Under the pieces are notes generated by a model. That model was not told the origin of the DNA and did no database searches. It saw only the letters and a program-made list of their open reading frames with translations. Source: Rubrobacter marinus (GTDB taxonomy: Bacteria > Actinomycetota > Rubrobacteria > Rubrobacterales > Rubrobacteraceae). Taken from it: a DNA stretch of 64,000 nucleotides. The position numbers and the translations under genes are program-made. This document shows, piece after piece, positions 6,744-64,000 of the stretch (position 1 is its first letter; each line of letters begins with the position of its first letter). The stretch is from the NCBI RefSeq assembly GCF_011492965.1, contig NZ_CP045121.1, forward strand, positions 1,922,001 through 1,986,000. The letters are read 5' to 3'.

Positions 6744-9337
6744 ATGGGCTGCTACGTGTTGGGTTTCGGGGAGATCGACCAGATGCAGGTCGCGGTCGTT
6801 GGCGGCAAGGGCGCGCACCTGGGGGAGCTTTCGCGGATCGAAGGCCTCCGCGTGCCGGCCGGCTTTTGGGTGACGACGGACGCCTTCCGCCGGATCATGG
6901 CGGAGGCGCCGTCGATCGACGATCGGCTCGATCGTCTGTCGCGCCTGGGGCCGGACGACCGGGAGGCGATCTCCGCGCTCAGCGCGCAGATCCGACGGAC
7001 CCTCGAAGGGATCGCCATCCCCGACGATCTGGCGGCGGAGATCACCCGCCAGAGCGCCCGGCTCGGCGAGGGGGCCGCCTACGCCGTCCGATCCAGCGCG
7101 ACGGCGGAGGACTTGCCGACGGCCTCCTTCGCGGGCCAGCAGGACACGTACCTGAACGTCGTGGGGCCGGCGGCGATCCTCCGGCACGTCGGCCGGTGCT
7201 GGGCCTCGCTCTTCACCGAGCGGGCCGTGACCTACCGCCTGCGGAACGGCCTGGACCACCGGAAGGTCCGCATGGCCGTGGTCGTGCAGCGGATGGTCTT
7301 CCCGCGGGCGGCCGGCACTCTTTTCACGGCCGATCCCGTCACGGGCAACCGGAAGGTCGCCTGCGTGGAGGCCACCTTCGGCCTCGGCGAGGCCCTGGTC
7401 TCCGGCCTGGTGAACGCGGACGTCTACGGGGTGCGGGACGGCGAGGTCGTCGCCATGGCGGTCGCCACCAAGCGGCTCGCCATCCACGCCTCGCCGGCAG
7501 GCGGTACGCGGGAACAGGAGATCGAGCCGGAGCGGCAGGACGAGCCGGCGCTGACCGAGCGCCAAGTCATGCGGCTCGTGCGGCTGGGACGGCGGATCGA
7601 AGCGCACTTCGGCCGCCCCCAGGACATCGAGTGGTGCCTGGTCGACGACGGCTTCCAGATCGTCCAGAGCCGGCCGATCACCACGCTGTTCCCCATCCCC
7701 GAGGCCGGCGACCGGGAGAACCACGTCTACGTCTCCGTCGGCCATCAGCAGATGATGACCGACCCCATGAAGCCGCTGGGCTCTCGTTGTGGCAACTGAC
7801 GGCCGGCCGGCCCATGTACGAGGCCGGCGGGAGGCTGTTTGTCGACGTCACCCGGGGCCTGGCAACGCCCGCGAGCCGCGCAGGCCTCCTGGAGGTCCTG
7901 GGGAGAGGCGATCCGCTGATCGGAGACGCGCTGCAGACCATCCTCGACCGCGGCGACTTCATCCCGACGCTCCCGGACGAGGATCCCGGCGGGGCGCCGG
8001 CGGGCGGCGCCCCGGCCCCGATCGAGACCGATCCGGCCATCGTCGCCGGGCTGATCGCGAGCAGCGAGGCCTCTATCGCCGCCCTGAAGCGAGACATCCG
8101 GACAGAGTCCGGACCGGCGCTGCTCGACTTTATCCTGACGGACATCCAGAAGCTGAAGCGGATCCTGTTCGATCCGCAGAGCCATGGGGTGATCATGGCG
8201 GGGATGGAGGCCGCCTGGTGGCTCAACGAGAATCTGCAGGCGTGGCTGGGCGAGAAGAACGCGGCCGACGCGCTAACGCAGTCCGTCCCCCACAACGTCA
8301 CGTCGGAGATGGGGCTGGCGCTCCTGGACGTCGCGGACGTGATCCGCCCGCATCCGGACGTGGTGGCTTTTCTGCAGCACGTCGAGGACGAGGGCTTCCT
8401 GGACGAGCTGCCCAAGCTCGCGGGCGGGCGGGAAGCGCGGGACGCCATCCGGGCCTGGCTCGACAAGTACGGCATGCGCTGCGTCGGCGAGATCGACATC
8501 ACGAGGCCGCGTTGGAGCGAACGCCCCACCACGCTCGTGCCCATCATCCTGGGCAACGTCAAGAGCTTCGAGCCGGGCGCCGGCGGGCGGCGCTTCGAGA
8601 GAGGAAGGCAGGAGGCCCGGAAGAAGGAAGAGGAGCTGCTGGAGCGCCTGCGGGCCTTGCCGGACGGGGAGCGGAAGGCCGAAGAGGCCAAGCGGATGAT
8701 CGACCGGGTCCGGACCTTCAGCGGGTACCGGGAGTATCCGAAGTACGCCATGGTCGGCCGCTACTTCGTCTATAAGCAGGCCTTGATGGAAGAAGCCCAG
8801 CGCCTCGTGCGGGCCCACGTGCTTCGTGAGGAGGAAGACATCTTCTACCTCACGTTCCAGGAGCTCCACGACGTCGTGCGCACGAACGGGGTGGATGACG
8901 GGCTCATCCGCGAGCGCAAGGACGCGTTCAGGTCGTATCAGGCGCTCACGCCGCCCCGGGTGCTCACCTCGGATGGCGAGGCCGTCGCCGGAGCGTACCG
9001 GCGCGGCGATCTGCCGGCCGGCGCGCTGGTCGGCTTACCGGTCTCCGCCGGGACCATCGAGGGGCGGGCCCGCGTCATCCTGGACATGGCACAGGCCGAG
9101 CTCGAAGCGGGCGACATCCTGGTCACCGCCTACACGGACCCCAGCTGGACGCCCCTGTTCGTCGCTATCGGGGGCCTGGTGACGGAGGTGGGGGGCCTGA
9201 TGACGCATGGCGCGGTGATCGCGCGGGAGTACGGCTTGCCGGCCGTCGTGGGGGTGGAGCACGCAACCCGGCGGATCCGGGACGGGCAGCGCATCCGCGT
9301 GCACGGAACGGACGGGTACGTAGAGATCCTGCCCTAG
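6744..9337 (+). CDS. rph: Rifamycin-inactivating phosphotransferase (one frameshift)
   Basis: Homologue of RPH, a PEP-synthase-like enzyme that phosphorylates rifamycins with ATP. The ATP-binding domain covers codons 1 to about 330 (VGGKGAHLGELSRIEG, AVRSSATAEDLPTASFAGQQ, RPQDIEWCLVDDGFQIVQSR). The rifamycin-binding region is in the middle, and the swivelling His domain ends the protein (GGLMTHGAVIAREYGLPAVV, phospho-acceptor His). The frame breaks once at 7778-7780: after DPMKPLG the family continues LSLWQLTAGRPM in the next frame, restored by one extra G in the GGG run. Everything else is full length (about 864 codons). Start ATG 6744 has AGGGAGG six bases upstream. I see no rifamycin-associated palindrome. 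Flanking relics suggest an acquired gene. Treated as one gene, probably intact in the cell. Confidence 0.88.
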
Positions 9338-9674
9338 TGGGCCAGCCCGACGGGTAGCCGGGCGGCAAGTGGTAGGCCAGACGCCGTTGGCGGCCTCGTG
9401 GAAGGCGCGGCCGCGTGCATGGCCGCGGCGTCCACCGTCAGGACGACGGGCGCCTCGCGGGCCGAGCGCCACCCGGTCGGGCCCGGCCGAAAGAGATGGT
9501 GACGTAGCGCTCGGTGCCGTTTAGCGGAGACCGGGGCTCCGCTATCATTGCGCTTATGGGACGAGGCCTGTAACTCAGAGGTCAAGCCGCGGGGGGAACC
9601 TGCTGCTCTTACGCGAGATTTGTAGCAGCTTCCGCACTTGGGATTCGGGTCGGGCAGGAGGAGAGGGGAAGGCG
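9338..9674. other. Intergenic region before the alditol oxidase
   Basis: No gene recognised. A purine-rich ribosome site (GAGGAGAGGGGAAGG) ends the region in front of ATG 9675. A short tRNA-like string near 9570 (GTAACTCAGAGGTCAAGC) does not fold into a tRNA. Confidence 0.4.
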
Positions 9675-63146: not shown

Positions 63147-63219
63147 GGACGAAGCGACTAGCGGATGAAGACGCCGGGTAAAGCCGTAGCGGCAACGTAC
63201 AGGGGGAGGGCCTAAACGT

Positions 63220-64000
63220 ATGAGGGACCCATCGGACCAGCTGCAGTGCTCTTTCTGCGGGAAGAGCCAGCGCCAGGTCAGGAAGCTCATAGCCGGCCCC
63301 GGCGTCTACATCTGCGACGAGTGCATAGAGCTCTGCAACGAGATCATCGACGAGGAGTTCTCGGGACCGGAGATCCTCAAGGACGACGACCTCCCCAAGC
63401 CCCGTGAGATCAACCGCATCCTCAACGAGTACGTGATCGGCCAGGAGGACGCGAAGAAGGTCCTCGCCGTCGCCGTCTACAACCACTACAAGCGGATCAG
63501 CATGGGCGTGGACACGACGGACGGCACGGAGCTGCAGAAGTCGAACATCCTGCTCGTCGGGCCGACCGGCAGCGGCAAGACCCTGCTCGCCCAGACGCTC
63601 GCCAAGATCCTGAACGTCCCGTTCGCCATCGCCGACGCCACGGCCCTCACGGAGGCCGGCTACGTCGGCGAGGACGTCGAGAACATCCTGCTGAAGCTCA
63701 TCCAGGCGGCGGACTTCGACGTGAAGAAGGCCGAGACCGGGATCATCTACATCGACGAGATCGATAAGATCGCGCGCAAGTCGGACAACCCGTCGATCAC
63801 GCGCGACGTCTCCGGCGAGGGGGTGCAGCAGGCGCTCCTGAAGATCCTGGAGGGCACGGTCGCGAGCGTCCCGCCGCAGGGGGCCGCAAGCACCCGCACC
63901 AGGACTTCCTGCAGATCGACACCAAAAACGTGCTGTTCATCTGCGGCGGCGCGTTCGGGGCCTGGAAGACGTGATCCGCCAGAGGATCGGCAAGCGGAGC
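63220..64000 (+). CDS. clpX: ATP-dependent Clp protease ATP-binding subunit ClpX, N-terminal part
   Basis: The gene runs past the window. The zinc finger [20 protein letters not shown] plus [15 protein letters not shown], Walker [35 protein letters not shown], Walker [12 protein letters not shown] and [20 protein letters not shown] are all canonical. The frame then breaks twice: the run of five Gs at 63879-63883 should have six (to give [20 protein letters not shown]) and the run of four at 63957-63960 should have five ([20 protein letters not shown]). As clpX is conserved and there are two breaks in 80 bases, these are almost certainly sequence errors. ATG 63220 has AGGGGGAGGG upstream. Confidence 0.94.

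Follow-up and report, generated by a model that had tools for sequence, protein, structure and literature searches.

Single-base frame breaks in the window

The window, by which we mean the whole 64-kb stretch of DNA that we analysed (contig 1, 1922001-1986000), is mostly plus-strand and G-rich, and belongs to a 4.42-Mb genome of 69% G+C that comprises two contigs (contig 1 of 4,156,492 bases, with dnaA as its first gene, and contig 2 of 263,859 bases). An earlier note on this sequence had listed nine single-base losses in seven of its genes and had held that a family protein runs on in the next frame at each. All nine are −1 frame breaks in this sequence, and the continuation of the family protein is borne out by profile matches that cross the breaks of six genes in one stretch when the read-through protein is searched with X placed at the break. 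Our comparison set included 24 genomes from the same family (Rubrobacteraceae); DNA gap lists against distant relatives are too noisy by themselves, and compensating gaps were netted out.

The rifamycin phosphotransferase gene rph (plus strand, 6744-9337) lacks one base at 7778..7780. Its read-through product matches NF041857 in one stretch across the break (1593.7 bits against a cut-off of 999), and the one relative compared (G007, 90% identical over the length of the gene) reads GGGG where this record reads GGG. The rph homologue is full-length and of the rifamycin-inactivating kind, and the other same-genus genomes searched yielded no close match to it, which makes its distribution patchy. 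An MFS transporter gene (plus strand, ~22928-24264) is broken at 23642..23645 and matches TIGR00895 across the break; the single homologue used for comparison, again from G007 and 78% identical, is one base longer. For benE (plus strand, ~37022-38250; loss at 37183..37185) the spanning match is to TIGR00843, two relatives (G009 and G012) are one base longer, and the missing base could be a C. The adenine deaminase gene (plus strand, 38345-40131; loss at 39860..39863) matches TIGR01178 across its break, with the extra base present in one of three relatives (G009) and the other two aligned with different gaps. The break in fhs (complement, 49182-50893; loss at 49798..49801, minus strand) is spanned by NF010030, and all three relatives carry the extra base.

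Two losses fall in a sulfatase-like gene (plus strand, 40969-42418), at 41217..41219 and 41249..41251, where the extra base is present in five and in all six of six relatives, respectively; its read-through product matches arylsulfatases in several stretches that lie both before and after the breaks. The sulfatase homologue of the MAG G004 is likewise short of one base, though elsewhere in the gene (L142:2179). At window position 6489, minus strand, the frame scan described below passes from one short coding stretch to another by a +1-type transition. The N-terminus of an amidohydrolase (27891-27965), which had been proposed as a further case, needs no break: the plus-strand ORF from a TTG start (27965..28825) is complete, its residues 8-281 cover positions 1-289 of the Pfam Amidohydro_2 model, and we dropped the candidate.

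The remaining gene is clpX (plus strand, from 63220), the N-terminal part of whose product has its top named match, at 96%, in Rubrobacter sp. MGR_bin332 (a MAG). Losses at 63879..63883 and 63956..63960, at each of which 21 of 21 relatives carry an extra base, are followed by a third at contig position 1986011 (window-equivalent 64011), 11 bases past the window end, and NF003745 matches the read-through in one stretch across the break. Because the three losses, all within 130 bases, sum to a restored frame, the deposited ORF looks open: it runs for 428 codons without a stop, while ~43 residues between the first and third losses, including a conserved stretch of 10, are read in wrong frames. 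A search of the genome for a second copy of clpX found none. At 63881 the closest relatives read GGGCGGCC, so the missing letter there may be a C between G runs; the missing letter is thus not always callable as G.

Broken essential genes outside the window

Near the window, a 20-kb stretch holding a cell-wall and division cluster (contig 1, 2026001-2046000) aligns end to end with G009, a same-genus MAG, at 87%, and is mostly alignable with G005 at 85%. Five breaks, in C and G runs, affect the cluster and pyrR within 13 kb (contig 1, 2029511-2042594; L130:3511-16594). We identified murD by TIGR01087, and the names murC, ftsA, pyrR, ftsZ, and radC are our own presumptive assignments, made from the protein sequences. 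The genes murD, murC, ftsA, and pyrR (the last of them twice) are broken here, and each is a single ORF in G009; ftsZ and other neighbours are intact here. Elsewhere, radC has two breaks and is intact in G009, and recN, recO, hrcA, and ftcD are also broken, with family models spanning the break.

The missing bases are by no means all G. In murC and radC a C is missing from a C run, and codon reading favours a C run as the position of the murD break too; in ftsA, as in clpX, a C separates G runs in the closest relatives, and this record shows nothing but G at that spot. A profile search of the genome for an intact murD recovered the gene as two halves only; a full-length copy was not found anywhere else. 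Walled bacteria cannot live without MurC and MurD, and the broken sequences therefore cannot be the cell's own unless they are mended at expression.

Density and sequence context of the breaks

We scanned for frame breaks with a hidden Markov model that has three coding phases per strand and a fifth-order codon model and that allows frame jumps, trained on 1.66 Mb from the same assembly. It detected 97-100% of simulated deletions and duplications, of which 61% of either kind passed the strict filter, and its placement of simulated events showed no preference for G or C. In this assembly 54 losses and 12 gains passed the strict filter, within 1.39 Mb of coding sequence (1.66 Mb scanned); allowing for the pass rate, the totals become ~88 losses and ~20 gains. 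The resulting rate of one indel per 13 kb is equivalent to ~Q41 and would amount to ~290 indels in the 3.7 Mb of coding sequence genome-wide if the remainder is alike. Control loci from named actinobacteria had no strict break in 0.53 Mb, and other Rubrobacteraceae loci had one clear break in 0.16 Mb; the density of breaks in the assembly exceeds chance as gauged by the control loci. G009 had six strict breaks in 0.25 Mb of coding sequence, a density similar to that of this assembly, and its consensus may itself be error-prone, or the similarity may reflect a lineage effect. Single-base losses in G009 lie in a pantothenate-kinase-like gene and in sensor kinases (L170:7430, L173:1314, L259:11894, L261:11952).

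Runs are enriched near the 90 cleaned losses, with G runs of at least 4 at 34 of them against 11.6 expected (threefold) and C runs of at least 4 at 13 against 7.6 expected (1.7-fold); 45 of the 90, at a placement accuracy of ~10 bases, lie away from any run of at least 4. The k-mers enriched around the 90 losses are chiefly G-run words, with no palindromic motif and no shared slippery motif beyond those words. Coding sequence offers 3286 sense-G and 1668 sense-C runs of at least 5, and the losses at them stand at 32:11 (p = 0.33 against 2:1); by gene strand the losses split 43 to 47, and their spread over 20-kb bins is Poisson-like. Per available run, then, G and C runs are equally affected and the coding strand is irrelevant.

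Several apparent regularities did not hold up. A coding-strand G bias, suggested by nine of nine sense-G sites in the window and by odds ratios, was gone after available runs were counted; the all-G pattern of the window reflects sampling, as it is a mostly plus-strand, G-rich stretch and sense-G runs are twice as common. An excess of losses around the presumed replication terminus (21 of the 90 at 2.00-2.16 Mb; p = 2e-4, post hoc) was set aside given the even spread over 20-kb bins, and across-the-board undercalling of long runs was rejected since runs of at least 6 are as frequent here as in G009. The earlier note's generalizations hold in part: all nine window sites are losses and were listed in G runs, but genome-wide about one-fifth of events are gains, and C runs are affected too. 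Its word "systematic" should be read as "recurrent", with ~1% of long runs affected, as an order of magnitude.

Origin of the breaks

Judged from the sequence and its relatives, the breaks are almost certainly residual consensus indel errors of the assembly and not biology. The DNA of the cell would carry intact genes, from which the deposited sequence would have dropped single bases at scattered places, mostly in G or C runs, as in an incompletely polished long-read assembly, making hundreds of sound genes look broken; the errors would have arisen in base reading or in polishing. The breaks are missing from close relatives, they are enriched at homopolymers and blind to the coding strand, and they affect essential single-copy genes (murD, murC, clpX, ftsA) like any others. 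A loss that is linked to runs, evenly spread, and indifferent to strand and gene importance is the pattern expected of consensus error. The genome's completeness of 94.3% and contamination of 3.0%, against 99-100% and 1% in other few-contig relatives, are likewise what we would expect if breaks split marker genes. Two observations tell against this reading: the 45 losses off long runs and the similar break density of G009.

The first of these would be accommodated by a DNA modification motif, in which the base caller skips a modified C beside G runs and run length is not the driver. The C between G runs in the closest relatives' clpX and ftsA, read here as G only, would fit as well, but the dominance of G-run words and the lack of a palindromic motif around the losses make this explanation improbable; a base-calling error linked to modification is, in any case, an artefact too.

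The second would be accommodated if the strain were a mutator or deficient in indel repair, with recent true base losses in G/C runs and real pseudogenes, and a bias towards single-base loss in runs does fit replication slippage. We consider this very unlikely, as it would require the loss of essential genes that have no intact copy, with clpX struck three times in 130 bases. Nor do the broken genes examined resemble decaying ones: their proteins have full family matches and no other damage, and in alignments with relatives codon-periodic substitutions continue on either side of the breaks, a sign of constraint that has not relaxed. The earlier note had argued that decay would bring substitutions and stops and that these genes should not be treated as pseudogenes, and its interpretation is supported.

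It is scarcely credible that the shorter runs are real and that programmed ribosomal frameshifting or widespread transcriptional slippage on G/C runs restores hundreds of frames during expression: a −1 ribosomal shift or a base added to the mRNA would repair every loss, but the site is conserved in no relative tested, the relatives read straight through, no common slippery motif exists beyond G-run words, and the runs here are of 3-6, whereas known transcriptional realignment mostly occurs on homopolymers of ~8 or more, and homologues share the sites of programmed events (PMC3711429).

Implications and comparison with known systems

Users of this genome risk miscounting pseudogenes, missing essential genes (murC, murD, ftsA, pyrR), and accepting a clpX product that is seemingly full-length although ~43 of its residues are nonsense. 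Polishing of the record should precede any claim about gene content or gene loss, and other findings in the window should be set aside if they depend on a broken frame.

Our scan detects frame breaks ab initio, as does GeneTack in its catalogue of genes with frame transitions (PMC3711429). The sites of its programmed classes are conserved across homologues, unlike the breaks described here; where a break in that catalogue falls outside any cluster of homologous breaks, it is attributed to an error, an orphan pseudogene, or an overlap between genes (PMC3711429).

Long-read bacterial assemblies are known to retain leftover indels, mostly single-base homopolymer deletions, that split genes and raise pseudogene counts (PMC8011154, PMC12007338, PMC8812927). 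The errors treated by Homopolish (PMC8011154), Kastor (PMC12007338), and Polypolish (PMC8812927) are like those described here in being gene-splitting single-base deletions that are correctable via relatives. Such error systems are homopolymer-linked, whereas about half of our losses are not placeable at a run. The artefact is of a well-known type, and what we report is a useful caution about sequence quality rather than a discovery about biology. Errors in the Kastor test genome fell mostly in A/T runs (PMC12007338), whereas in this genome G/C runs predominate, as its 69% G+C would lead one to expect.
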